Positions 346-56,492 of a stretch of 64,000 bases of DNA are shown one piece after another. Under the pieces are notes generated by a model that saw only the letters and a list, made by a program, of their open reading frames with translations, was not told the origin of the DNA and did not search any database. Where the stretch lies: the NCBI RefSeq assembly GCF_030409875.1, contig NZ_JAUFQR010000001.1:2666001-2730000 (forward strand), in the 5' to 3' direction. Made by a program: the position numbers and the translations under genes. Each line of letters starts with the position of its first letter. Position 1 is the stretch's first letter. Source of the stretch: Chryseobacterium tructae (GTDB lineage: Bacteria > Bacteroidota > Bacteroidia > Flavobacteriales > Weeksellaceae).

Positions 346-1550
346 ATGATGAAGAACGAAGTCAAAAAGAATGCTTCTTATGTTTTAATGATTTTAAATG
401 TACTGGTTGTTATCTTGATCTCCAGTAACCTACGCTCTCCTATTGTTGCAGTATCTCCCGTATTGGGTGATGTGAGGGATGCTTTACAGCTGGATAATTT
501 CCAGGTAAGCCTCCTTACCTCTATTCCACTCTTTATGTTTGCCGTTTGCTCAGTTTGGTGAGTCGATTTTCTAATACCCTTGGAATCAGTAAACTATTGA
601 TGTATTCATTGGTTATTCTAAGTTTTGGATTATTTCTGAGGATCACAGGCTCTCTGTGGTTGTTGTTTGCTGGCTCAGTATTTATTGGTTTAGGAATTTG
701 TATAGGAAATGTAGTAACACCCGGATATGTTAAAAATAACTTTCCGAAACAAATTGGCTTGATGACGGGTATTTTCGCCGTTTCTATGAACCTTACTGCT
801 GCTCTGGCTTCCGGTTTCAGTGTAAGAATCGGAGAATGGACAGGTTTTGGATGGCGTGGTTCCCTGGGAATTTGGCTGGTGATCGCCGCTTTAGGATTTT
901 TGGTATTGATTCTTGAAATGATTTTTAATAAAAGGAACTCCGATCAGCCTAAGCCTGCTTTGGGAACTTCTGATTTTAATATGTTTAAATCGTCTCAGGC
1001 ATGGAATATCAGTATTTTCATGGGATTACAGTCTCTATTTTACTATTGTATGGTGGCCTGGCTGCCTTCTTTCCTGACAGATTATCATATGCCTGGTGAA
1101 AGTTCAGGTTGGGTACTTTTTGTTATTCAGATCACTATGATTCCTATAACATTCTGCTGCCCGATTATTGCCAGTAAAATGAAAGATCAGAGAATTATGA
1201 TCCTTTTTATATGTGCTTTGATGTTTGGAAGTACAATGATGTTTGTTTTTCTAAAATCTCAATGGATCTATGTGAATGCTGTTATCATCGGAATTTCCAA
1301 TGGATTGTCATTCAGTTTGTCTATCCTGTTTTTCTCTACAAGAACGAAAAGCAGTATCAATGCTGTGAAGATTTCCGGAATGGCACAGTCTGTGGGCTAT
1401 CTGATTGCAGCATTTGGACCACCGGTATTTGGAAAACTGCATGATTGGGATATTTCCTGGAACACTTCATTCTATTTTCTGAGTGCTGCAGTATTGATCA
1501 TGCTTTTCTTTGGATTAAGAGCTGCAAGAAATAAATATGTAGAAGATTAA
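346..1550 (+). CDS. MFS transporter, CynX/NimT type (frameshifted)
   Basis: This is a twelve-helix major facilitator of the cyanate/2-nitroimidazole transporter type. The N-terminal SSNLRSPIVAVSPVLG segment after the first helix is characteristic of the family. The reading frame breaks at 554-556: the first frame ends in FAVCSVW and the next resumes with LVSRFSNTLG. Adding one T to the TTT run gives FAVCSVLVSRF and one uninterrupted protein of 401 residues, the normal length for the family. The break is probably a sequence error. The gene is divergent from the partial AraC gene at 1-274, and a strong terminator follows at 1578. The substrate cannot be told from the sequence. Confidence 0.85.
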
Positions 1551-3454: not shown

Positions 3455-4743
3455 TTATCCGATAAACTCATCCAAAACTTCCAGAATATTCCGGTATACA
3501 AAATCCAATTCTTCGGATGTAACACAATATGGAGGAACCAAATACATTACATTTCCTAATGGCCTCATAATGATTCCTCTTTTTAAAAATTCATTGTAAA
3601 GCTGTTTTCCGATTTCATTGAAATACGAAGTACCATGTCCGGTTTTAAAATCAAAAGCCAGAATGGTTCCAATCTGGCGGGGATTTTCGACCTGAGGGTG
3701 TTCAGCTAAAGTTTTTAAAAACTCTGAGTGCTGTTGAGAAATACGTTTGATATTCATTTGGGTGTCTTCTTTAAGTAATAATTCCATACTTGCTAAAGCA
3801 GCAGTACAGGCTAAAGGATTGGCTGTAAAAGAATGTCCATGGAATAAAGTTTTATGCTTGTCATCAGACCAGAAAGCCTCATAAATTTCTTTAGAACAGG
3901 TGGTAACTCCCATAGGCATTGTTCCACCAGTTAACCCTTTAGAAAAACACATAATATCGGGCTGTTCGGTAAGATAATGGGCTGCAAAGAGCTTTCCAGT
4001 TCTTCCAAATCCTGTAAAAACCTCATCCTGAATCATAAGAATCCCCTGTTGCCTGCAGAATTCCATTAGATTATTTAAATCCTCGGCATTATACATTAAC
4101 ATTCCTGCGGCTCCCTGAACTAATGGCTCATAAATGAAACAAGCTACTTCATCTGCAATTTCTTCAATCTGCATTTGTATACTTGCCAAATTTCAGCATT
4201 AGGCGTATCGATGAAAATAACTTCAAACAACCTGCTTTCAAAAGGTTTAGTCCAATAACTTTTTCCGCTTACAGACATTGCCCCAAAGGTGTCACCATGG
4301 TATGCATTTTTAAAGGCAAGAATTTTTGTTTTTTCTTTTCCTTGATTGTGTGCATATTGAATACACATTTTCAAAGCTACCTCCACTGCTGTAGAACCAT
4401 TATCAGAATAGAAAACCTTATTTTGATTATTAGGTAAAAGTTTCAATAGATTTTCAGAAAGTTGGGTGGCTGGCTCATGGGTGAATCCGGCAAAAATAAC
4501 CTGTTCTAAAGTGTTGAGTTGCTCGAATATACGTTGAGCAATATAAGGATGAGAATGGCCATGCAGGGTTACCCACCAGGAAGATACGACATCCATATAT
4601 TGTTTATCTTCCGCATCATAAAGATAAAGTCCTTTACCTTTTACAATAGGAATAATGTTGTCTGCGGTTTTCATCTGGGTATAAGGATGCCAGTTAACGG
4701 CTTTATCCCTTTCTTGGAGGCTGGCTGGTGTTGTTGTATTCAT
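3455..4743 (-). CDS. bioA: Adenosylmethionine-8-amino-7-oxononanoate aminotransferase (frameshifted)
   Basis: BioA converts 8-amino-7-oxononanoate (KAPA) to 7,8-diaminononanoate using S-adenosylmethionine, the antepenultimate step of biotin synthesis. Family marks include WHPYTQM near the N-terminus, SSWWVTLHGHSHP, YHGDTFGAMSVSG, and the PLP-lysine segment MCFSKGLTGG with DEVFTGFGRTG before it. The frame breaks near 4188-4193: the first part ends after DTPNAE and the second begins at LASIQMQ. One extra base in the AAATTT run rejoins them into 429 residues, the usual BioA length. The gene lies downstream of bioB on the same strand but is separated from it by 520 bases of repeats, so co-transcription is likely but not certain. 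Confidence 0.93.
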
Positions 4744-5263: not shown

Positions 5264-6249
5264 TTAGCAGCAGCTTTCCCTTTTCATCATAGGTTTTAAT
5301 CCAAGAGTTTGCAGCATTTGCATATCTTCAGAAACTCCGGGATTAGGAGTCACCAGTAATGTTTCTCTTTCTCCGGTGAAAATAGAATTGGCTCCTGCCA
5401 TAAAGCACCAGGCTTGTTCTGTTTCAGTCATTTCTATTCTTCCTGCACTTAATCTTACCATGGAAGAAGGCATAACAATTCTTGCTGTAGCGATCATTCT
5501 TACCATTTCCCAGGGATCAACTTTTTCATTATCTTCTAATGGAGTTCCCTCTACCCTTGCTAATGCATTGATAGGAACAGATTCAGGGTGTTTAGGCATC
5601 GTAGCTAATGTTAACAACATAGAGATTCTGTCTCTGTGGGTTTCTCCAAGTCCAATAATTCCACCGGAGCAGACTGTAATTCCTGCTTTTCGTACATTGT
5701 TGATGGTATTGATTCTATTATCAAACGTTCTGGTGGAAATGATCTCCTCATAATATTGTTCAGAAGTGTCAAGGTTATGATTATAAGCGTATAATCCTGC
5801 TTCCTGAAGTCTTATCGCTTGTTCTTCGGTAAGCATTCCTAAAGTACAGCATACTTCCAGTCCGAGTTCATTCACTCCTTTACCATGTCGATCACTCTGT
5901 CAAAATCTCGGTTGTTACGAACTTCACGCCATGCGGCAGCCATACAGAAACGGGAGGAACCGCTGTCTTTCGCTTTTTGTGCATGAGCAATAACGGTTTC
6001 TGTAGGGAGTAAAGCCTGTACTTTAATATTGGTGTGATATCGGGCTGCCTGTCCGCAATATGAACAGTCTTCAGGACAACCTCCGGTTTTAATGGATAAT
6101 AAAGTAGAGATTTGTACTTCTGAAGGATCATGCCATTCACGGTGTACGGTTGCCGCTTTGTAGATAAGCTCCATAAGAGGTAAGTGATAAATCTCTTCTA
6201 TTTCTTCTTTAGTCCAGTTGTTTCTGATTGTTGTTGTATCCATTATCAT
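5264..6249 (-). CDS. bioB: Biotin synthase (frameshifted)
   Basis: BioB is the radical-SAM enzyme that inserts sulfur into dethiobiotin to make biotin. The cluster motif CPEDCSYC places the three cysteines at residues 58, 62 and 65. Other family marks are [33 protein letters not shown] and [10 protein letters not shown]. The frame breaks at the TTT run 5879-5881: the first part ends DMVKE and the second continues with [13 protein letters not shown]. One more base gives DMVKGVNELG and a 328-residue enzyme of normal length. The start overlaps the end of bioD by four bases (6246-6249), so the two are translationally coupled. Confidence 0.95.
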
Positions 6250-6932: not shown

Positions 6933-8042
6933 CTAAATGAAATCTTTAATAATTTCTGTAAGCCTGATAATCTCCTCTTTTGTATTGAAGCTATGAAGGC
7001 AGATTCTAAGTCTTTCTGTTCCTTCTTTTATTGTAGGGCTGTAAATGGCATAGGTTAAAAATCCTTCTTTTGATAATGTATTTTGTAAAGATTTTAACTT
7101 TAGATTATCAGGAATAATAATAGCCTGAACCGGGCTTTCTTCAAAAGAGGGTGATAATAATCCCTGACTTCGGAATAGTTTGATATTTTCTTGAAGCTGT
7201 ATGGATAGTTCTTTATGTTTTTCTAAATAAATATATCCGGCTTGTATACTCACCCATTGAAAATCTTGTGCAGAAGTAGAATAAATAAAAGGTGAAGCAA
7301 AATTGACCAGATAAGACTTTACAATATCATTACAAAGAATGGCAGCACCATGAGCTCCCAATGCTTTTCCATAGGTGATTACATTGGCTGTAACCAGATC
7401 CTGCAAATCATACTCATCAACTAAACCTTTTCCAAAAACTCCAAACGCATGGGCTTCATCAACGATTAGGTCAGCTTCATATCGCTTTGCCAGTTCAGCA
7501 ATTTTTTTGATTGGAGCAAAATCTCCTTCCATGGAATAAAGACTTTCTATAGCAATATAACAATGTCCTTTCTGTCTTTTTAAAATGCTTTCCAGATGTT
7601 CAGTGTCATTATGTTTACATTTGACTTTTTTGGCATTTGACATTTGACACGCATCATGTACAGAGCGATGAATTTGTTCATCTACAATAATAGTATCATG
7701 ACGGTTGGGAAGCGTTGAAAATAAAGCTAAATTGGCATTATAACCGGATGGAAATAGCAAAGCAGCAGGAAACTGATGTTTTTCAGCAATAAAGTCTTCT
7801 GTAGAAGTTACTACGCTGCTGTTCCCACTGATCAGCCTGGAGCCTGTACTTCCTGAAATCAGTTGAGGATTCGCATTCATCGTCTTTAATAATATATTTT
7901 GAAGATCTTTATTTCTGGCAAGTCCCAAATAATCATTGGAGTAAAAATCTATTCCTTCGATTTTCGGCTTTAAAGTTCTTAATGTACCATCCTGCTTTCT
8001 TTTATGCAGGGCTTCCTGAAAATAGTTCATCCTTTTAAGCAT
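6933..8042 (-). CDS. bioF: 8-Amino-7-oxononanoate synthase
   Basis: BioF is a PLP-dependent alpha-oxoamine synthase that condenses pimeloyl-ACP/CoA with L-alanine to KAPA, the first step of ring assembly. Motifs seen are YSNDYLGLA, SGSTGSRLISGN, VDEAHAFGVFG and the PLP-lysine segment VITYGKALGAHGA. The ORF gives 369 residues from the ATG at 8042, which overlaps the stop of the upstream gene (8035-8037). An in-frame ATG at 8030 would give MNYFQEALHKRK and is equally plausible. The overlap implies coupling to the upstream di-iron protein. Confidence 0.94.
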   Translation of the reverse strand: MLKRMNYFQEALHKRKQDGTLRTLKPKIEGIDFYSNDYLGLARNKDLQNILLKTMNANPQLISGSTGSRLISGNSSVVTSTEDFIAEKHQFPAALLFPSGYNANLALFSTLPNRHDTIIVDEQIHRSVHDACQMSNAKKVKCKHNDTEHLESILKRQKGHCYIAIESLYSMEGDFAPIKKIAELAKRYEADLIVDEAHAFGVFGKGLVDEYDLQDLVTANVITYGKALGAHGAAILCNDIVKSYLVNFASPFIYSTSAQDFQWVSIQAGYIYLEKHKELSIQLQENIKLFRSQGLLSPSFEESPVQAIIIPDNLKLKSLQNTLSKEGFLTYAIYSPTIKEGTERLRICLHSFNTKEEIIRLTEIIKDFI

Positions 8043-8657
8043 AGTTCAGCTGCGCTACTTCTTCTGCAATGGCATTGATCCATTGTTCATGAAGTTCTTT
8101 CTCTATTTGCAGAATGTGATCTGCATGGAGTTGCCAGTTTTCAGAGAATTCATTGAGCTGATTAATCATTTCTTCCAGATGGCCTTCTTCTTCCAGGATA
8201 ATAGATTTTACCATGATTTTTGAAGATTCTTCTGTAAGGATCTGTTGATAAACAGGATAAAGCTCATCAGCACGAACCTCAATAGCATAGGTAACAAAGA
8301 GATAAGCAGCGTACTTAAGATCTTCTTTTGTCAATTCAAATACATCTTGAAGATATCTGCAGGCCTTAATATCCAATGAATGCAGATATTGCCTTGTTGC
8401 TATGGGAGCAAGGAGCTCTCTGTTTCATAAGTTTTACAAAGTTCCGGATCTATTTTTCCAATCTGTTTTTTAAGGTAATAAGCATGACGGTGTTCTTCGG
8501 CAGCATGTTTAAGCTGAATTTGGGTAACTAAAGCCGGATGCTCACACTTTGATATTTTTCTTGCCCCGGCATTTTCCATAAAAGAAAGGGTGTTCAGCCA
8601 TTTGGCATGTGTACTGCCATCTTTTACTATTTTTTCGAGCAGATGATGAAATTCCAT
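8035..8657 (-). CDS. Ferritin-like di-iron protein at the head of the biotin operon (frameshifted)
   Basis: I do not recognise a named family. The frame breaks at the GGG run 8404-8406; one more base joins SSLLP to IATRQYLHSLDIKACR and gives 207 residues. The joined, mostly helical protein has the spacing of a ferritin-like four-helix di-iron site: E28 in helix 1, E55-x-x-H58 (EEHRH), E127 (AIEVRADEL) and E157-x-x-H160 (EEEGH). It is the first gene of the bio operon and its stop overlaps the bioF start, so it is very likely co-translated with bioF. No bioC, bioH, bioG, bioI, bioW or bioZ gene is visible in the cluster. An oxygenase role in making the pimeloyl chain is therefore an attractive inference, but it is not shown by the sequence. 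A storage or general redox role is the alternative. Confidence 0.6.
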
Positions 8658-8723: not shown

Positions 8724-10210
8724 ATGGATAGTCCGGTTAAGATTCCTTATGAAAGTTTCATTAAAATAGATAGAAAATCAGAGACTTCTATCTATTTGCA
8801 AATTGCTAATCAATTGGTGAATGCCATTCAAAGAGGATTTTTACCTTTTGGAACGAAGCTTCCCGGAACCAGAGCTTTTAGTGAAATACTGGAAGTGCAT
8901 CGAAATACAGCAGTAGCCGTTTATGACGAACTATCTGCTCAGGGTTGGGTGGAAAGCTTTCCGAATAAAGGAACTTTTGTTATTGGAAAGGATCAGGAAA
9001 AACCTCTTCAGGTAAGGGATTTCAAAGATAATAGTCTTCAAAACTATCCCAAAACAACAGGGTTTACTTTTAAAACCTCTAATATTCTGGATAATCCGTT
9101 TGAGCATTCGGATTGTGAATATGTTTTTAATGATGGAGTTCCGGATATCAGATTGACTCAAATCGGACAGCATTCCAGATTTTACAGTTCTATTCTTAAG
9201 CGGAAGTCCAATCAAAAAGGGCTCGGTCACTATAACCAGGACGGAAGTGAGTTTTTCAAAGAGCATTTATCCCAGTATCTTAATCTATCCCGTGGTTTAC
9301 CAATTTCCAAGAGCAATCTTTTGATTACCAGAAGTACGGAGATGAGTATTTATATTGTTTCCGAAATCCTTTTGTCTCCAGGAGATACCGTTCTGGTTGG
9401 GGATCTGAGTTATTTTTCTGTGAATATGATTTTCCAGAAAGCTGGAGTCAATATTGTAACTCTTCCCATTGATGAAGACGGAATTATTGTAGAAAGTGTC
9501 CGTGAAGCTTGTCAAAAGCAGAAAATAAGGATGCTTTATCTTACTCCGCACCATCACTACCCAACAACAGTGGCTTTAAGTGTCCAACGAAGAATGGAGC
9601 TACTGGAATTAGCCAATGAATATGGATTTGTCATTCTTGAAGACGACTATGATTATGAATTCCATTATGATAAAAGTCCTATTCTTCCTTTAGCCAGTGC
9701 TGATACCAATGGAATGGTGATCTATATCGGGTCTTTTGGAAAATCACTGGCACCGGGATTCAGAACCGGATTTATTGTAGCCCCTGAAAATCTGATGGTA
9801 GAAATGCGGAAGCATCTTGGAATTATTGATAGGCAAGGTGATATTTGATGGAAAGAACATTGGGAGAAATGATTGAGGAAGGAGAAATCAACCGTTATCT
9901 GAAAAAATCCTTAAAGGTATATCAGGAAAGACGGGATTATTTCAGCGTTTTGCTTAAAGAAAATCTTGGTGATGTGATCACTTTTGAAAAGCCTTCAGGA
10001 GGTCTTGCCATCTGGATGGAATGGAATATTCCTGTTAATCTGATGCAACTGAGCCGGAAATGTGCCCAGGATAATCTTTTTATTCCCAAAACCCTGCTCT
10101 ATCAGAATAAAAATCTTACCGCGATAAGACTGGGCTTTGGAGATCTGAGTTTTGATGAAATGGACAAAAGTATTGAGATTCTTTCCCAGAATATCCTGCA
10201 TTTTAAATAA
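8724..10210 (+). CDS. MocR-type regulator (GntR wHTH plus aminotransferase; frameshifted)
   Basis: The N-terminal ~75 residues are a GntR winged helix (IYLQIANQLVNAIQRGFL, then PGTRAFSEILEVHRNTA). The rest is a fold-type I aminotransferase-like domain that binds PLP, with LEDDYDYEFHY and the lysine segment GSFGKSLAPGFRTGF. Such MocR proteins sense PLP or amino compounds and repress or activate neighbouring genes. The frame breaks at TTT 9844-9846: RQGDI is followed in the next frame by LMERTLGEMIEEGE. One extra T restores 495 residues, the family length. The gene is divergent from the bio operon across 66 bases, so control of biotin synthesis is a reasonable inference, though self-regulation alone is possible. 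Confidence 0.88.
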
Positions 10211-22039: not shown

Positions 22040-23223
22040 TTACGGCTTATTTACTTTATTACAAAACAAAACATGGGCAATAAGAGCAAGGATTCCAAAT
22101 GCAGTTCCCACCGCACAAACTCCAGTCCACTGTGCCTTTTGCCATGCGATAGAAGCCAGCCATGTTCCCAGTGAGCCTCCAATAAAATAGGAAACCATAT
22201 ACACTGTATTCAATCTGTTGACCGCATTGGACTTGATCAAAAAATAATTAGTTTGGTTCATAATGTGACTGGACTGAACCCCAAGGTCTACAAGAATTAC
22301 TCCTACAACCAATCCCCAGTAGGTTTCTCCTGCAAAGTAAGTGAATCCCCAACTTCCGATCAGGATCAGTAATGAATATAATATAATCCTGTTGATATCC
22401 AGATACTTTTGAAGTTTTCCTACTTTTGCAGCAGCCAGTGCGCCTACTGCTCCTGCCAATCCAAAACTCCCCACAACAGATGAACCCGCATTAAAAGGTG
22501 GTTTTTCCATGTGAAAAACTAAGGTTGTGAATAAAGCACACATAGATCCGAAAGCCATTGCTCCACGGAATGATGCCAATTGAAGAATAGGCTGTGTTTT
22601 TGCAAGATGAGCTACAGAACGCATCAACTCTTTATAAGTCCCTTTAAATTAGGATGTAGTTCCGGAAGCATTTTGTAAACAGCGAGCCATACTAAGATCA
22701 TTAATCCTGCAGCAATTCCGAACATGGCTCTCCATCCCCATACTTCCCCCACAATGCCTCCAATGAAACGAGAAAGTAAGATTCCTAATAAAAGACCTGA
22801 CATCACCAGACCGATATTAGCCGATTTTTCTTTATCCGATGAAAGTTCTGCGGCAATAGGAACAAACAGCTGCGGAATTACAGAAGTAGCTCCAATCAAT
22901 AAGCTGGCAGCATAGAGCATCCATAATTGATTGGCAAAAGTCATCCAAAGCAGAGACCCAAAAACCAAAAACAGATCCATCAGAATTAGTTTTTTGCGGT
23001 AAAATTTATCACCAAGTGGTACGATCAGTAATAATCCGAGTGCATAGCCAATCTGGGTAAGCACAGAAATCTTGCTGGCTGCTGCTTCAGAAACGTGAAG
23101 ATCCTCTGATATCAATGCCAGCAAAGGCTGGTTGTAATAATTGTTGGCCACTACAAGTCCTGAAATAATAGCCATTAACCAGACTACTGTTCTGGAAATA
23201 CCGTTGGTAGAATTCACCTGCAT
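22040..23223 (-). CDS. MFS transporter, YnfM/YdgK-like (frameshifted)
   Basis: The start is set at the ATG at 23223 (MQVNSTNGISRTVV), because the 29 residues upstream in the same frame do not look coding. The first half runs through NNYYNQPLLALISEDL, GDKFYRKKLILMD and ELHPNLKG. The second resumes with MRSVAHLAKTQPILQLASFRGAMAF in another frame. One extra base in the TTT run at 22643-22645 gives HPNLKGTYKELMRSV and a 394-residue, twelve-helix protein typical of this MFS group. It is divergent from the NrtR-like regulator at 23447, its probable controller. The substrate is unknown. Confidence 0.85.
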
Positions 23224-23446
23224 CTTAAAATTTTTATTGAATGGTAATATATCCTGATGATTACCTATTTTGGATATATTTTTAACGTCCCCAAAGGTAA
23301 GGATTTTCATAAAAAAGATATATTATTATGATAGATTTCACCTGTAGGTGTTATAGATTACTGACTCGCAGCCTGCTCCAATAAAGAGTTTTTTTAAGGA
23401 TTGTCCGATTTTATTTTTACATTTGTAATAACACACATTTTATTTT

Positions 23447-25799: not shown

Positions 25800-26392
25800 A
25801 TGATCACTGAAGATTTATTACTTTCATTTAACGCAGAAACAAAACATTATAAAGCAGGAGAAATCATTTTTCGGGAAGAAGATATTCCTCTGCATTATTA
25901 CCAGATAGAAAAAGGAAAAATTAAACTCAACAATTATACTGAGGATGGAAAGGAATTTATTCAAAATATATTCTCCGATGGCCATAGTTTTGGAGAGTCT
26001 CTTTTGTTCGTAGAACGTCCCTATCCTATGAACGCCGTATGTATAGAAGATTCTTCTGTTTTTAGATTGCCTAAATCCAGCTTTCTGGATCTGATACAAA
26101 GCAATCCTGAGATTTCTTTGAATATTTACCAATGCCTGGCAGAAAGAATGTATTATAAATATATTATGTTCTACAATCTTTCGTTTCAAATCCGGCATCC
26201 AAACTGAAATTGCTGCTAGATTATCTGAAAAGTTATCATGATGATAAAGCACCATACTCCTTCCTGATCCCACTTACCAGACAACAATTGGCATCATTGA
26301 TCGGGCTTCGTGTAGAAACTGTGATACGAACGATCAAACAAATGGAAAAAGATAAGATTGTCAAACTTGAGAAAAGGAAAATTTATTATTAA
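25800..26392 (+). CDS. Crp/Fnr-family regulator (frameshifted)
   Basis: The first part is a Crp-type sensor domain (GEIIFREEDIPLHYYQIEKGKIKLNN, GKEFIQNIFSDGHSFGESLLF, PYPMNAV). The second part is its helix-turn-helix (TRQQLASLIGLRVETVIRTIKQMEKD). The frame breaks at AAA 26188-26190. One more A turns SFQIRHPN-stop into SFQNPASKLKLLLDYLKSY and gives 197 residues. It closely resembles the tandem pair at 55238 and 55896, with the same PYPMNA and TRQQ(L/M)A motifs and the same ~200-residue length, so the three are paralogues. No cAMP-binding cassette is seen. It converges on the helicase operon. Confidence 0.85.
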
Positions 26393-26445: not shown

Positions 26446-28598
26446 TTAATTGGATCGTTCCAACTTATTTTCTATGCATTTCAACTGCTGAATATAGGTA
26501 TAGCACCCTTCAAAATCAAAATATTTTTCTTTTAATAAGGCAGCCTGATATTGAATAGGCAGGTATTTCCCCCATTTCGAAAAGTCTATCATTTCAGGAG
26601 TGTTCTCCAGTAAATTGATAAGCTCCTGATCAATATTCTGATTCCTGTTAATATCATTCAAAATAGTGATAAACTTACTACCGTCAGAATTTTCTATTTC
26701 AAAAAGACTCTCTTCATCATGAAGGATACTTTTAACTTCCGATAGGTTTAGAATAAACTGTAAAGTTCTGTTGATTTTAGAACTGGTAAAGGAATAAAAA
26801 GTAAGATGCTCATTGCTAACCAATAAAGGCCTCTCCGTTTTAAAATCATTGAGAGTAAACACACAAAATTCTTTCCTTAAATCATTAAGAGCTTCCCTAC
26901 TCATATCATCCAAGAAGTCATATGTTTCTTTTGTAATAAGTATTTCAAGCATTTTTTCCCGGATTCGGTGAGCCGTATCAGCTGCATCTCCGAAGAATGT
27001 TGGCTTTTTCCCATCTTTGGCGGGTATTACCTCTATTTTTTTTGTTTTAAAATCAATATCAATAATGCTCCAGATCTTTGCTGACAAGTAGATATTTTCA
27101 TTTTCTCTTATTTGCGGAGATAAAGGCAATTCCCCTATCTTAACCCCATTACTGGAAACTTTGAAGAAAACCTGTGTTTCAAAAAGACTGTAAAAATCTC
27201 TGCTATTAACAACTTCTTCGCCTTCTATTCCGATGATTAGCTCATTTCCCAACTTTTCCAAAAAATCAAGCGTAATAAGATGAGTGATAATCTCTTCTGC
27301 CTCTTCTCTTTTTATCTTTATGAAAACAGAATTCGTTGTAATATCCTCCAACAGTTTAGACAAAGAGATTCCCGATGTACCTTTAACAATAGATAAAATC
27401 TGGTGGACTAAAACATCATAAGGCCTTTCATTGATGGAAATAGGCTCTATATATTGTTCCTGATACAGCAGCCAGCATGCTAATGATTGTAATAAACTCC
27501 ATTTATCAGTGGCATATAAAAATAAGTTACTGGCTTTACCTTCTCTTCTTCCACTCCTTCCTACCCTTTGGATCAGAGAGGCAATACTATGAGTAGCATC
27601 AATCTGTACAACTTCGTCTACATTTCCGATATCAATCCCCAACTCCAGGGTTGAAGTACAGGAGATGCAAAAATTTTCAAGAGTAGAATTTTTGGCAAAA
27701 AACTCTACATATTCTCTTACTTCCTTATCTACCGAAGAATGATGTGAAAAATAATTCTTATGCCCGCCTACTCTTTCTGATATTTGCTTTAATTTCACCG
27801 CAACTTCTTCTACTCGGCCTCTTGCATTAGGGAAATAAGAACTTTACTTTCTCTTGTTCTTACATATAAGTCCTTTAATAAAGCTAATGGTAATTCATTC
27901 GAAGAGCCTGTGAAGTATCTGAAAACAGCATTAATTGGCTTGGGAGTTGAATCCCGGATGATTGTGGTTTGATCGGGGTTTCCAAGAAAGTTTTTAAGTT
28001 CAATATATTGATTCGCATCACTTACTGTAGCAGAAAGCCCAACAATACTAAACTTTTTGGCATTTACTTTTTGAAGACGGTTCAGAAGAGATTGCAAATG
28101 CGTACCACGGTCTGATCCCAAAAATGAATGAATCTCATCAATCACAATATAATCGAGTGTTGAGAATAAATGTCTGATATTGTACGGTTTATTCACAAAC
28201 ATGGCCTCCAGAGATTCAGGAGTAATGAGAACTATACCTTCCGGATTTTTTAATAATCTGTCTTTAGCTCCTTTTGCCGCTTCTCCATGCCACTTGGTTA
28301 CCGGAACATCGAGATATTCACAAAGACCTTCAACACGAACAAACTGATCATTAATTAAAGCAATTAAAGGAGAAATATAGAGTACTTTCACCCCAGGTTC
28401 TTTGAAATTCACCTTAGATAAAATAGGCAGAAAAGCAGCCTCTGTCTTACCTGAAGCTGTTCTGGATATTAAAACATAATTGTTATCCGTTGTCATAATT
28501 CTTTGAATGGAAGCTTCCTGAATTCTCCTCAGACTCTCCCATTTTTTATCCCGGATATATTTTCTGATTGGTTCAGAAAGCAGGTCGAATGCTGTCAT
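26446..28598 (-). CDS. Lhr/BrxHI-like DEAD/DEAH helicase (frameshifted), third gene of the TerB-C operon
   Basis: The protein has superfamily-2 helicase motifs: SRTASGKTE (45-53, motif I), TPESLEAMF, DEIHSFLGSDRG (154 on, motif II) and GLSAT (motif III). After the break come CTSTLELGIDIGNVDEVVQ and SLIQRVGRSGRREG (motifs V and VI). A long C-terminal region follows, as in Lhr-type and BREX-linked BrxHI helicases. The frame breaks at AAA 27833-27835. One more base gives KVLIFPNARGRVEEVAVKL and an intact 717-residue enzyme. Its start overlaps the ATPase stop by four bases. Translocation on DNA or RNA as part of a complex with the two upstream products is inferred. Confidence 0.88.
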
Positions 28599-29911
28599 AG
28601 TTCTTCAATACTATCTAAAAGTATCAGATCATTGGGTCTTTCATCAGAAATTTCAATATCTCCGAAAAGTCTTCCTTTATCTACATCAGGATTTTGCCTG
28701 ATGATATTGAGAATATTCAGAAAGTCTCTGATCACTTCTCTTGGGGTAAGAAATTCTGCAGCTCCCGGTTTATTGAACATCTCTTCCATAAAAACAGAAA
28801 TCTCCTCATCTGTAATATTTAGTTCTATTTTGTAATTGAAATCAAAGATTAGTTTTAATTTTTTAAGCAAAACAAAGATCTCATTGTGGTTCAAAGGCAT
28901 CAGTTTAATAACCGGCTGTGCAAAATCTCGAAATTCAGAAGTTTCAAATTTATTCCCTTCCAATCTGGATTTTAAAGCCTGATAACTGAAAAGTCCTCTT
29001 CTTTCATTTTCCAAAAACTCTTTTGTTCCGGCAAAGTTGATGAAAAGATTAGATACTTTTCCTTGAAAACAGTCATTATAAATGGATAAGATCTTCTCAT
29101 AGTTTTTTTCACGGGAAGCAGAAACGGATATTTTGTAAAGATTGATCGCTTCATCCAGATTGATCATAAAACCACTGTATCCCATGCTTACAAAAAGCTT
29201 ACAGAAATTCTTCAGCATATCATAATAATTGGAGTCATTAATGATTTCTCTTATTCCCAGATCCTGTCGGGCTTCTGTTTTGGTCGTATATTCTCCTTTC
29301 AGCCATTTTAATGCATTACGACGCAATAATTCATCCCCTTTGATATAGCCTTCATAGTATTTTACGATGGCAGAACCAAAATCGAATCCGCCTACCTCAG
29401 TAATTTCATTGACCGTTTTCATAATGGAATTTTGAATCAAGCTTAAATATTGATCATTTCTTATTTCCATTAAAGAAATTTGGTTTTCTTCTGCTGTTTT
29501 TGAGATCACCTGCTCAATCCATTTTTCCAAAAGCGTTTGCAAAGCACCACCTTCCGGCTTGGTCTGGATGGCAATATTATCCATGATGGCAGAATAGAGA
29601 ATCACACTTTTTCCATCATTGGCATACAGCCTGTTATCCGGAGTAAAATCTGCATTGGCCACAACAAATTTTTGTTTTAAAGCTACTGTATTTAAGAGAT
29701 GAAGCATAAAAGATTTCCCACTTCCGAAATCCCCAATCCAGAATTTCACAAGACTAAGTCCATTTTTAACGTCTTCAAGGGAACCGATGAATGCATTTAC
29801 TTCATCAGATCTTCCTACTGTAATATGTTGTACTCCCATCTTTGGAACCACGCCGCTTACCAGTGAATTGATAATGGAGGTTGCTTCTTTGGGTTTGATA
29901 TTGTCAATCAT
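28595..29911 (-). CDS. BrxD-type ATP-binding protein (DUF2791)
   Basis: The 438-residue protein is a P-loop ATPase with Walker A GDFGSGKS at residues 60-67 and a Walker B-type YSGFMINLDEAINLY. The block FAGTKEFLENERRGLFSYQAL followed by KSRL is highly typical of the BREX BrxD/DUF2791 family, as is the N-terminal IINSLVSGVVPKMGVQHITVG. In type 2 BREX systems a protein of this family is paired with a BrxHI helicase, and the same order is seen here. No pglW, pglX, pglZ or brxC gene is present. It overlaps the TerB-C gene by eight bases and the helicase by four, so all three are translated together. Confidence 0.85.
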   Translation of the reverse strand: MIDNIKPKEATSIINSLVSGVVPKMGVQHITVGRSDEVNAFIGSLEDVKNGLSLVKFWIGDFGSGKSFMLHLLNTVALKQKFVVANADFTPDNRLYANDGKSVILYSAIMDNIAIQTKPEGGALQTLLEKWIEQVISKTAEENQISLMEIRNDQYLSLIQNSIMKTVNEITEVGGFDFGSAIVKYYEGYIKGDELLRRNALKWLKGEYTTKTEARQDLGIREIINDSNYYDMLKNFCKLFVSMGYSGFMINLDEAINLYKISVSASREKNYEKILSIYNDCFQGKVSNLFINFAGTKEFLENERRGLFSYQALKSRLEGNKFETSEFRDFAQPVIKLMPLNHNEIFVLLKKLKLIFDFNYKIELNITDEEISVFMEEMFNKPGAAEFLTPREVIRDFLNILNIIRQNPDVDKGRLFGDIEISDERPNDLILLDSIEEL

Positions 29912-31352
29912 TGTTTAAAAGTTTTTTATAGTAATCGGTGTTTATAATAAAATAGTCATCTTCTTCCTCAATGAGAATATCATCAAGAGTTTCATAGCAG
30001 CATTCATTGATAGCATCTATGGTAGATCCCATAAATAAGCCCTTGGTTTTGATAAAGTCTCCAAAATCAGCCTGAAGTATGTTAAAACTTTGTTTTTCAA
30101 ACAGATCCAGAATTTCCATTTGAATAGCTGATAAATTCAATAAGCCAAGATACTTTGAAATTTGAACTTCCTGAATTTGAGGAATAGTAATGGTTACCTG
30201 TTGTTGGTGAGAAACTTCATCTGCTTCTTTTACAAGAATTTCCTCATCTTCTTCATTCAGAATTTGGCCTAAAATATCTGCCGTTTCAGAATCTAAAGCC
30301 TGAATGCTTTTAATCGCCTCAGGATCAATGGTAATTCTTTTTCTTTTAGGAGTATAGAACAAATTCACTTTTTCAACAGCCTGTTCCAGGTTTCTGTCAG
30401 TGATAAACTCACTGAGGATCTTTTCAAAATCAGACAGTTGCTCCTTTGTAGAAAATAAGTTTTTTTGAACGGTCTTATTGAGTTGTCTTTGATCAAACTT
30501 CGGAGAATTCAAATTTTTATCAAGATAATGGATATAAAGTCTTAAGGAACAAGCTTTATCATGTTCTGCAATAAACTTTGAAGCTTCGAAAAATATAGCA
30601 TCAACAGATGGATTTTTGATATTTACTTCCGTAAGTCTGAAAATTTCTCTTTCAAAAGCCAATGGATTGGAATAATCTTCTTTGATCTCATCAAATTTGG
30701 TTTTCCAACGGTTCGTATTATTCTCATTAAGGATAATATTCGTTTTATAGTCGGCGTCCAGAACCTGATGTTGATTTTCTGTCAGAAAAATTTCCAATTT
30801 TGAAACCACTTTTCTATTATACTGATGAAGAATATCCGGATGGTTATAATTGAAATCAATATTGATCTTTCTTTTGATACCGTATACTTCACGAACAGTA
30901 TTCTCACATAATTTCAGAATATGATTGAAAATTTCTGTTTGTACAGAATCAAATGTATAATTGTAGTTTAAACTGTCTTTCCTATAATTGTAACGGAGGC
31001 AGACAATGATTTCCGAAAGTTCATCAATAACTGTAGCATAAGATTTATTGATAGGAATGCAATGCTGATACAAATATTCAATAGCTCTTGTAAACTGTTT
31101 GATTATTTGTATTTTACAGTATTCTATTTCGTTGAAAACATTGCCGGAAAAAGACATTTTATCCAGCATTTTGAGCTGATCTTCATTAAGAGATAGCTTA
31201 CGGACATACTTTTGCCCTATTTTCCACGAATTAGGATCATAAGCAGTAGGTTGATCGTTCGGAGCAGAAGACATACTTCCAAAATTAATCGGAGTTTCTG
31301 TATTTCCCGATACATCTATTATGGAATCATCAATAGTATTATCATTCAGCAT
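29904..31352 (-). CDS. TerB C-terminal domain protein, first gene of the operon
   Basis: The 482-residue protein ends in a TerB-C-like domain (about 395-480: LGLLNLSAIQMEILDLFEKQ, FGDFIKTKGLFMGSTIDAINE, then a run of acidic residues and DDYFIINTDYYKKLL). The middle part (NPSVDAIFFEASKFIAEHDK, CSLRLYIHYLDKNL) and the N-terminal WKIGQKYVRKLSLNEDQLKM segment also fit TerB-linked proteins. A separate TerB core domain is not obvious, so it is shorter than the full TerB-N/TerB/TerB-C proteins. From memory of the family, TerB-C proteins have been predicted to work with helicases and ATPases in DNA processing, and the operon here matches that. It has no visible nuclease motif. Confidence 0.72.
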   Translation of the reverse strand: MLNDNTIDDSIIDVSGNTETPINFGSMSSAPNDQPTAYDPNSWKIGQKYVRKLSLNEDQLKMLDKMSFSGNVFNEIEYCKIQIIKQFTRAIEYLYQHCIPINKSYATVIDELSEIIVCLRYNYRKDSLNYNYTFDSVQTEIFNHILKLCENTVREVYGIKRKINIDFNYNHPDILHQYNRKVVSKLEIFLTENQHQVLDADYKTNIILNENNTNRWKTKFDEIKEDYSNPLAFEREIFRLTEVNIKNPSVDAIFFEASKFIAEHDKACSLRLYIHYLDKNLNSPKFDQRQLNKTVQKNLFSTKEQLSDFEKILSEFITDRNLEQAVEKVNLFYTPKRKRITIDPEAIKSIQALDSETADILGQILNEEDEEILVKEADEVSHQQQVTITIPQIQEVQISKYLGLLNLSAIQMEILDLFEKQSFNILQADFGDFIKTKGLFMGSTIDAINECCYETLDDILIEEEDDYFIINTDYYKKLLNND

Positions 31353-31522: not shown

Positions 31523-32149
31523 CTATAAGTCAAGCTGTTTTTGAAACTCTTTCAGATAGTTAGCAATATGAATACCATCTGCCAGCCCATGGTGCACTTC
31601 AATAGAAACCGGCAGATACTTTCTGCCATCACGAATACTGAATTTACCAAAAGAAATTTTGGGAATGGATTCTCCCGTATTAAGATCTGTAGGATGAAGA
31701 AGGGCGCTGAAAGAAAACCATGGAATTGTAGTATGTCTTATGTGATCTTTTCCTAACCTTTCATTGCTAAGTCTAAGTCCTGAAGATTCATGTACTCCTT
31801 TTATTTCATTTTGAAGAGCTGCATTGAACTCTTCAAATGCTTCTGAAAAATGAGTAAATGAAAAACCAAAAGTTCCGTCTGGTCTTCCAATAGTACTTCC
31901 TGCATGAACTGTATCAAATTGAACAACCTGCCCGTCAATGATTCTGAGCTTTAATTCATCAATTGTATTCACGGCAACCATAGACTTGTGATAATAATAG
32001 GCAAAAAAAGAATATCCTTTCTCTTTGGCAGTATCAAATGCTTTTGTACAGTCTACTTCTGTTGTAAAACCAAAATATGGGTTTGCCATTTTAGAGAAAA
32101 ATTCAAAATGTTCCTTTCTATTCCATTGCTCAAGGTCTATAATCTTCAT
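31523..32149 (-). CDS. Chloramphenicol acetyltransferase-like protein (CatA type)
   Basis: The 208-residue protein matches the trimeric CatA fold throughout. The catalytic motif HHGLADG lies at residues 186-192, TIPWFSFSALLHP holds the substrate-contact serines near 146-148, and YFGFTTEVDCTKAF is the N-terminal strand. O-acetylation of chloramphenicol with acetyl-CoA is the known activity of this family, but chromosomal CatA-like proteins may have other acyl acceptors. It lies upstream of the TerB-C operon on the same strand with a 170-base gap. No transposase or integron mark is close, and base composition looks like its neighbours. Confidence 0.82.
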   Translation of the reverse strand: MKIIDLEQWNRKEHFEFFSKMANPYFGFTTEVDCTKAFDTAKEKGYSFFAYYYHKSMVAVNTIDELKLRIIDGQVVQFDTVHAGSTIGRPDGTFGFSFTHFSEAFEEFNAALQNEIKGVHESSGLRLSNERLGKDHIRHTTIPWFSFSALLHPTDLNTGESIPKISFGKFSIRDGRKYLPVSIEVHHGLADGIHIANYLKEFQKQLDL

Positions 32150-50860: not shown

Positions 50861-52293
50861 ATGCTAAGACCTTGGAAATTAGAATTCGAAATTGACAAAA
50901 AGCTTGATAAGGCAGTGTATTTACAAATAGCAGATACTATTATTACAGATGTCCGTTCAGGGAGATTAAAGCCTGGTGATGCCCTTCCCGGAAGCCGAAA
51001 CCTGGCAGCTATGCTGAAAATCAATAGAAATACGGTAGTAGAAGCTTATCAGGTACTTCTTAACGAAGAATGGGTAATTTCTAAGGAAAGAAAAGGGATT
51101 TTCGTATCGGATCAGCTTCCTACTTTGCACAAAAACAGAACGGATAAGATGTCAGATACTTTGAATCTCCCCGTGATGACTCGCGGTACTCTGATTAATT
51201 TTGATGATGGCCATCCAGACAGTAAAATAGCTCCTGTTAATGAGCTGGCAAGAGCCTACCGACAAATTTTCGGGATAAAAGCAAAGTGGCAAATGATGGG
51301 ATATGGTGATGAGCATGGAGATATAGAATTCCGAAAAATGATTTCTCAGATGCTAAACCACCAAAGAGGCATGCAGATCCATGAAAATGAAATTTCCATT
51401 ACAAGAGGAAGTCAGATGGCTATGTTTTTAACAGCTCAGAGTCTTTTAACCTCAGGAGATTGCATTATTGTTGAAGATCCCGGCTACCAACCAGCATGGC
51501 AGGCTTTTGAATATGCTGGAGCTCAGCTTCTCCCTGTTGCTGTGGATGAAGAAGGAATCAATATACAGGCTATTGAAGTACTTTTATCTGAACATACAAA
51601 TATCAAAGCGATTTACATTACTCCTCACAGGCAGTATCCAACGATGGTTACCTTAAGCTTATCAAGACGGTTAAGATTGATTGAGCTTGCGAATCAACAT
51701 GATATAACCATTATTGAAGATGATTATGATAATGAATTTCATTTGGTTACCGTCCTATTCTGCCCATTTCCAGCTTTCCGGAGCTTAACAATTATGTATA
51801 CATCGGAACACTGAGTAAAGTGGTTGCGCCAGCATTAAGAATTGGATATTTGGCCACTAAAAATCAGGATTTGTTACAAAAGATCGGCAGTTTAAGAAAG
51901 ATTATTGATGTACATGGTGACGTTATCATGGAACAGGCCGTGTTGCAGCTTATTAAAGAAGGAGCGGTGAAAAAACATATCAGAAAAGCGACAGCTCATT
52001 ATAAAAACAAAAGAGATTTTGTCTACAACCTTTTGAATCAATACATGAAAGAAATTGCTCATTTTACCTTACCTGAAGGAGGGTTAGCTTTTTGGATTGT
52101 TCCAAAAGTGACATTAGATTGGGATAAGGTAGCCTTAGCATTATTGGAGAAAAACATTAAGATCATTCACCCAAAGCAATACAGTCGGAAACATGTCAAC
52201 GGTTTTAGGCTAAGCTATGGTTCAGTCTCAGAAGAACAACTGGAACAAAGCATACAAATCATTGCTGCAGTTTTTCATCAACTTTCCGAATAA
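50861..52293 (+). CDS. MocR-type regulator (GntR wHTH plus aminotransferase; frameshifted)
   Basis: The N-terminal GntR domain is AVYLQIADTIITDVRSGRLK, then PGSRNLAAMLKINRNTVVEA. The rest is a PLP-binding aminotransferase-like domain with VEDPGYQPAWQAFE, IIEDDYDNEFH and, after the break, IGTLSKVVAPALRIGY as lysine segment. The frame breaks at TTT 51742-51744. One more T gives EFHFGYRPILPISSFPELNN and 477 residues. It faces the cupin-aldolase-thioredoxin genes across about 100 bases and is their likely regulator. TTGGACTGTTT (50816) and AGTCCAG (50855) just upstream form a possible operator. Confidence 0.88.
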
Positions 52294-55895: not shown

Positions 55896-56492
55896 TTAAT
55901 ACAAAATTTTACGATTTTCAATTTTTAGGATCTTATCTCTTTCCATATGTTTAATGGTTCTTATGGCAGTTTCTACACAAAGCCCTGTAAGACTGGCCAT
56001 CTGCTGCCTGGTCAATGGAATCATAAAAGAATATGGACTTTCATCATCCTGAAAACTTTTAAGATAGTCCATCAAGCCTTTTAATCTGATTGAAGGGTTT
56101 TGAGAGGAAATATTAAGCATCATAACAAATTTATAATAAAGACGTTGTGATAAAAAGCTAGTTACTTCCATACATAACTTGGGAGACTGATTTAACAATT
56201 TGAAAAAAGCAGACTTATGAAGCCGTAAAATACTGCAATCAGTAATGGCTTCTGCATTCATAGGGTATGGCTTCTCTATAAAAAGAATAGATTCTCCACA
56301 GCTCTGCCCTTTTGATAAAAAATTTTGAATAAATTCTTTTCCCTCTTCATTATAATTATTCAACTTTACTTCTCCTGAAATGATCTGATAATAATAATTA
56401 GGAGTATCGCCCTCACAGAAAATATTTTCTGTAGGTTTATAGTCTCTTATTTCGGCTCCCGCTGATTGTAAAATATTTTCGTCAATAACCAT
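55896..56492 (-). CDS. Crp/Fnr-family regulator, tandem paralogue
   Basis: The 198-residue protein has the sensor core ENIFCEGDTPNYYYQIISGE, NEEGKEFIQNFLSKGQSCGE, PYPMNAEAITDCSILRLHK and the HTH TRQQMASLTGLCVETAIRTI. It closely matches the neighbouring gene at 55238 and the one at 25800. The tandem arrangement suggests a recent duplication. The upstream 300 bases (56493-56792) hold a terminator and otherwise only AT-rich sequence. Confidence 0.87.
   Translation of the reverse strand: MVIDENILQSAGAEIRDYKPTENIFCEGDTPNYYYQIISGEVKLNNYNEEGKEFIQNFLSKGQSCGESILFIEKPYPMNAEAITDCSILRLHKSAFFKLLNQSPKLCMEVTSFLSQRLYYKFVMMLNISSQNPSIRLKGLMDYLKSFQDDESPYSFMIPLTRQQMASLTGLCVETAIRTIKHMERDKILKIENRKILY

Follow-up and report, generated by a model that had tools for sequence, protein, structure and literature searches.

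A probable Shango defence system of a divergent type centred on Bacteroidota, at a fixed site in the Chryseobacterium chromosome

Which system is encoded by the compact operon at positions 26446..31352 of the 64,000-nt stretch of Chryseobacterium tructae DNA analysed here (hereafter 'the window')? The original prediction was of an undescribed module assembled from BrxD-type and BrxHI-type parts. According to the accessible part of PMC10250203, however, the triad of TerB-like protein, ATPase and helicase has already been named Shango and inhibits phages in Pseudomonas aeruginosa; as this makes Shango an established system, the operon can no longer count as undescribed. That the operon is the Shango defence system (SngA-SngB-SngC) already described in other bacteria is very probable. 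Our full reading, to which we assign a probability of roughly 0.75, is that it is a Shango of a divergent, Bacteroidota-centred type located at a fixed Chryseobacterium chromosomal site.

The three genes lie on the minus strand and overlap by exactly 8 and 4 bases, as originally described (Table 1). Pfam also bears out the three families predicted at the outset: TerB_C (PF15615, E 2e-21) in the sngA product, BrxC_BrxD (PF10923, E 4.8e-144) in the sngB product, and DEAD (E 1.3e-33) and Helicase_C (E 7.8e-11) in the helicase pieces, with an Lhr winged helix scoring under the Pfam cut-off in the second piece. SngB has a Walker A motif (GDFGSGKS at 60), a Walker B-type LDEA at 252 and, at residue 295, the GTKEFLENERRGLFSYQAL block that had been pointed out before. 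The long SF2 helicase with its core motifs stood up in part: motifs I-III and V-VI are all there, but only across a frame change in the assembly. The solved structures closest to SngC, using the intact protein of the relative L002 as the query, are the DNA helicases 5v9x (E 5e-29) and 7lhl (E 3e-28), both of which we take to be Lhr. For the helical core of SngA (predicted structure with a model pLDDT of 80) we found no fold match. The earlier observation that the operon has no recognisable nuclease holds for its four ORFs by Pfam, and any cutting would therefore be done by other enzymes.

Table 1. Coordinates of the operon, of its flanking genes and of the window's interrupted genes.
Feature	Position in window	Strand	Description
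sngA	29904-31352	-	482 aa; TerB_C at residues 334-478 (Pfam); helical core at about residues 44-330
sngB	28595-29911	-	438 aa; AAA+ ATPase; PF10923 (Pfam), SngB (PADLOC)
sngC, first open piece	27810-28598	-	262 aa; DEAD domain; motifs I, II and III
sngC, second open piece, other frame	26446-27798	-	450 aa; Helicase_C; motifs V and VI
Upstream flank, CAT-family acetyltransferase gene	31523-32149	-	Outside the system; PF00302, E 3.9e-28; insertion-site marker
Downstream flank, Crp/Fnr-family gene, first open piece	25800-26207	+	PF00027, E 2.2e-21; insertion-site marker
Interrupted gene	346-1547		One frame in c4a
Interrupted gene	3464-4743		One frame in c4a
Interrupted gene	5267-6249		One frame in c4a
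Interrupted gene	8038-8657		One frame in c4a
Interrupted gene	8724-10204		One frame in c4a
Interrupted gene	22040-23310		One frame in c4a
Interrupted gene	25800-26389		One frame in c4a
Interrupted gene	50861-52281		One frame in c4a

The assignment to Shango is carried by SngB and SngC. The PADLOC SngB model matches the ATPase with 545 bits (E 3e-164) as compared to 153 bits for the BrxD model, and with 155 bits it stays below the 350-bit cut-off of the NCBIfam equivalog BREX_BrxD. Both helicase pieces are likewise nearer to SngC than to BrxHI: 321 bits (E 5.1e-96, model positions 2-265) versus 198 for the first, and 347 bits (E 7.9e-104, model positions 279-718) versus 223 for the second, with the intact SngC of L002 scoring 697 versus 447. 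Contrary to the original proposal, the parts are thus not of BrxD and BrxHI type. Window SngA belongs to the SngA family, though weakly so, with 125 bits (E 1.3e-36) over model positions 189-525; the canonical proteins of Sulfitobacter faviae (345 bits) and Escherichia coli (349 bits) match nearly the whole model. As the canonical SngA of Cetobacterium reaches only 166 bits, the score alone does not divide Shango into types. We also aligned the proteins with those of the Shango described on S. faviae plasmid 4, using the coordinates given in the accessible part of PMC10221251. Identity is 38% over 432 columns for SngB (E 5e-114); for the two helicase pieces it is 47% (199 columns) and 32% (327 columns). 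SngA aligns at its TerB_C end only (24% over 126 columns, E 5e-7). Genes for a PD-(D/E)XK nuclease and a UvrD helicase directly follow the published S. faviae operon (L096:6015-8772).

To survey gene neighbourhoods, we used the window's SngB as the query and kept the best 80 of 113 related loci (coded L001 upward), a set that for this reason leans toward close kin. The triad sought by the original prediction recurs: among these best 80 of 113, 78 have the A-B-C gene order and a one-frame SngC of more than 650 aa, which argues that the three-gene grouping is beyond chance, and in the remaining two (L032 and L067) the contig ends after SngB. One of the 78, L044, has two genes between sngB and sngC (L044:7575-9591; DUF4062, and Schlafen AlbA_2 with HATPase_c_4).

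SngA of the window is not of the canonical TerB_N-TerB-TerB_C layout. We scanned 38 window-type SngAs (the window's own and 37 from the 80 loci, hand-picked for spread) and 15 canonical ones (the members we could reach on plasmids and in a set of 296 genomes from the phylum) with Pfam at E 0.01. TerB_C is found in all proteins of both sets (38/38 and 15/15); TerB_N is found in 0/38 window-type and 15/15 canonical proteins, and TerB in 0/38 and 12/15, respectively. By hhalign, the two kinds of SngA align over 116 C-terminal columns (93.7%), and nothing else aligns. In the SngB tree all 27 window-type rows fall on one side of a branch with support of 100/99, recovered in 100% of 200 bootstrap trees. 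Canonical rows of the same phylum fall on the opposite side, and the split is therefore not just host phylogeny. The window-type clade held both with and without the BrxD row; with this very long row included, the long canonical rows L097 and L147 were unplaced outside the canonical clade, and long canonical branches were flagged by the tree program. SngA domains were counted for 14 of the 14 canonical tree rows and 15 of the 27 window-type ones, a sixteenth (L069) being scanned separately. L142, at first labelled divergent by its PADLOC range, came out among the canonical tree rows and was treated as canonical in the tree without BrxD; its SngA has TerB_N and is one of the 15 canonical proteins. 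Taken together, we are confident that Shango splits into two types, with the window's type centred on Bacteroidota. Within the literature searched, the TerB_C-only type with its linked BRCT gene (see below) is a new variant, and the original prediction missed both the divergent SngA and the BRCT gene of sister operons.

Two Hymenobacter loci have a pair of SngA-like genes in tandem (L077:7147-10007 and L079:6979-10016), with TerB_C in both members of the L077 pair. Long forms include a 1211-aa SngA (L038:6369-10004) and two with N-terminal bacterial SH3 domains (L063:7704-10004 and L069:7404-10001).

The strongest rival reading is that this is not Shango at all but a sister system, in which the SngB-SngC motor was taken up by a different SngA-like protein with the TerB_C dock in common, so that sensing and effect may differ. 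Several observations fit such a system: window-type SngB sits on a long stem (1.53 and 1.84 changes per column), TerB_N and TerB are lacking in 38/38 SngAs, the alignment with canonical SngA is restricted to TerB_C and the helical core matches no fold. A strict reader may prefer the name, given that the published description has a TerB domain and this SngA has none by Pfam. Against it, the PADLOC SngA model still covers the window's protein, SngB, SngC and the gene order are kept, and SngB is distant from BrxD, sharing 20% identity with that of a BREX-2 system. We do not treat TerB_N and TerB as defining for Shango, because 3 of the 15 canonical SngAs have no TerB match and the PADLOC model accepts the window-type protein; overall, we consider a separate sister system unlikely and retain the reading of a divergent Shango.

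A second concern is whether this Shango copy works. The helicase spans two frames in the assembly, and if the split were real, the copy would be dead: a pseudogene in which the helicase is truly broken in the strain and the system is off. The interruption is, however, one of many. Compared with the close relative c4a, interruptions in the window affect 3 of 19 genes close to the operon and 7 of 29 at a greater distance (the sets have two genes in common, and in one of the seven there is only a stop near a start), and the Crp/Fnr-family flank gene is among those split. By Pfam, two of the interrupted genes encode MFS transporters and two more belong to the biotin pathway; the latter have Radical_SAM plus BATS and class III aminotransferase domains and, judging from these, probably encode biotin synthase and a biotin-pathway aminotransferase. 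A presumed PorX-like gene elsewhere in the genome looks split too, judging from the usual PorX architecture. Completeness of the genome is 97.3%, versus 99% or more for 33 of the 35 congeners compared. Since the helicase is whole in 78 of the best 80 of 113 loci and interrupted genes are found throughout the window, the split probably stems from an indel-rich assembly, with relatives holding intact copies. SngA and SngB, moreover, remain open, and a genuine pseudogene seems quite improbable. Programmed frameshifting is out: SngC is in one frame in 78 of the best 80 of 113 loci, the other two ending with the contig, and the frequency of interrupted genes in the window also speaks against it.

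The operon sits between a Crp-family and a CAT-family gene, and both flanks are retained in 18 loci of the best 80 of 113. To check for empty sites, we read 13 regions from 18 congeners without sngB. In 8 of the 13 the CAT-family gene comes immediately after a Crp-family gene; another 3 have the CAT gene but no Crp gene, and the last 2 show rearrangements. At two of the eight empty sites the Crp gene is closest to the window's own copy, and at the other six its best window match is the paralogue at 55896-56492 (55-58%). With the site empty in 8 of the 13 sngB-less congeners read, we regard the operon as a clean insertion. Within the genus, sngB is present in 45 of 173 genomes, the window's own included. 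On plasmids, sngB-like genes occur in 691 of 72,556 records, at least one of these genes being brxD, and among 50,697 phage records there are none, which excludes a phage-borne system. Pfam scans of ten flanking ORFs in the window revealed no integrase or transposase domain and no named defence gene. In C. defluvii, a 1403-aa protein, which judging from a motif probably starts like a Cas9, is encoded about 2.8 kb from the Shango operon (L010:16230-20441).

A fixed chromosomal site, flanks free of integrase and transposase domains in the ten ORFs scanned and the family name TerB could also be expected of a housekeeping module for DNA repair or tellurite stress rather than defence. Such a module is hard to reconcile with the patchy presence in the genus, the empty sites and the plasmid-borne relatives, and in the accessible part of PMC10250203 the Pseudomonas homologue inhibits phages; we thus rate it as highly improbable. 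Tellurite resistance as such is out, as PF05099 (TerB) has no match in SngA or elsewhere in the genome. Finally, a degenerate BREX type 2 remnant retaining brxD and brxHI, to which the naming of PF10923 for BrxC/D and the match of BrxHI models to the helicase might point, is very improbable given the PADLOC and NCBIfam scores and SngB being the single PF10923 protein of the genome. No BrxC was found in the genome, nor a BREX-like PglZ: the sole PglZ-domain match is far from the operon and, as it adjoins an ORF resembling a response regulator (which we presume it to be), we take it to be PorX-like. In placing the module outside BREX, the original prediction was right.

We return to the divergent Shango and to a fourth gene that accompanies some window-type operons and is absent from the window's own. 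Its product combines TerB-like helices with a ligase/RFC1-like BRCT domain. More than 1200 bases upstream of sngA were available in 76 of the best 80 of 113 loci. The gene was flagged in 22 loci; L063 has an exonuclease-BRCT protein instead and in L066 the gene lies downstream, leaving 20 loci of the best 80 of 113 with the gene upstream of sngA, at gaps of -41 to 102 bases. In the 173 genomes of the genus the full-length gene occurs 13 times, always near sngB, and once, in the same genus, the TerB-like/BRCT protein is fused in frame to SngA, giving a protein of 806 aa (L104:1658-4078, genome G177). Remnants were sought in the window and seven loci, in addition to the whole-genome search, and the two that were found point to loss of the gene. 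BRCT proteins with an RNase_T (DnaQ-like) exonuclease domain are encoded beside sngA in L063 (6674-7591) and about 0.9 kb downstream of sngC in L064 (14365-15237); they may hint at a DNA degradation route in some members. On a Hymenobacter plasmid, sngC is immediately followed by a BRCT-domain gene (L099:8565-9218).

How might such a system act? The literature searched offered no mechanism for Shango, which the accessible part of a 2026 review also gives as unknown. For BrxD, a role as loader of BrxHI on DNA has been put forward (PMC12839542, accessible part), and by analogy we tentatively suggest that SngB loads the SngC motor onto phage DNA. In this scheme SngB, an ORC/Cdc6-like AAA+ ATPase, would use ATP to drive loading of the Lhr/Ski2-like SF2 helicase SngC, which would then unwind or translocate along the phage DNA and so block replication or packaging. 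SngA would serve as the adaptor, docking on the motor through its TerB_C end and bringing target recognition through its variable helical region. TerB_C is the likely dock because it is the sole part of SngA that aligns between the types; a role in recognition is suggested by the divergence of SngA, whose similarity falls below the flank-gene median in 18 of 19 loci, with that of SngB at or above the median in 19 of 19 (a rough comparison with paralogues left in; 30 loci were looked at, 19 of which have at least four flank genes). In sister operons, the TerB-like/BRCT protein would add recognition of DNA ends or nicks.

The second type keeps SngB, SngC and the TerB_C end but swaps the remainder of SngA, a pattern that hints at what serves as engine and what as sensor. 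The BRCT protein linked to sister operons, which one species has as a fusion with SngA, makes 5'-phosphate DNA ends, gaps or nicks a candidate trigger. It is conceivable, at somewhat less than even odds, that SngA of the Bacteroidota type gave up its TerB sensing part, the TerB_C dock came to sit on a new helical body, and a TerB-like part resides in a separate, dispensable protein whose BRCT domain recognises 5'-phosphate DNA ends or nicks, making Shango a sensor of DNA ends or replication intermediates. If so, lineages without the BRCT protein, as in the window, would have a system with altered recognition. At the level of sequence comparison, our analysis establishes the membership of SngB and SngC, the gene order, the SngB clade, the TerB_C-only SngA and the presence or absence of the operon at one site. 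The defence role raised by the original prediction is likely by analogy with the phage inhibition by P. aeruginosa Shango. In the accessible part of PMC10250203, Shango of strain PA14 protects modestly (10-100-fold) on plates against many though not all phages, with protection in liquid culture being generally strong, and an E. coli Shango inhibits two phages about 10-fold.

How, then, does the operon compare with known systems? The PADLOC candidate PDC-S48 shares with the fourth gene its C-terminal part, which matches the BRCT end (E 1.7e-5); the match is limited to about 110 residues, and the window has no such gene. The fourth gene itself is present in 0 of the 15 canonical Shango loci retrieved, a set in which several loci offer little flanking sequence or none. 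With BREX type 2, the operon shares a homologous, adjacent ATPase-helicase pair equivalent to the BrxD-BrxHI dyad, but SngB is only 20% identical to a BREX-2 BrxD and misses the BrxD equivalog cut-off, and neither BrxC nor a BREX-like PglZ was found in the genome. From the canonical Shango of P. aeruginosa PA14, E. coli and S. faviae plasmid 4 it differs in that SngA is without TerB_N and TerB and SngB belongs to a separate clade, while the gene order, SngC, the TerB_C end of SngA and an SngB that is 36-42% identical are held in common.
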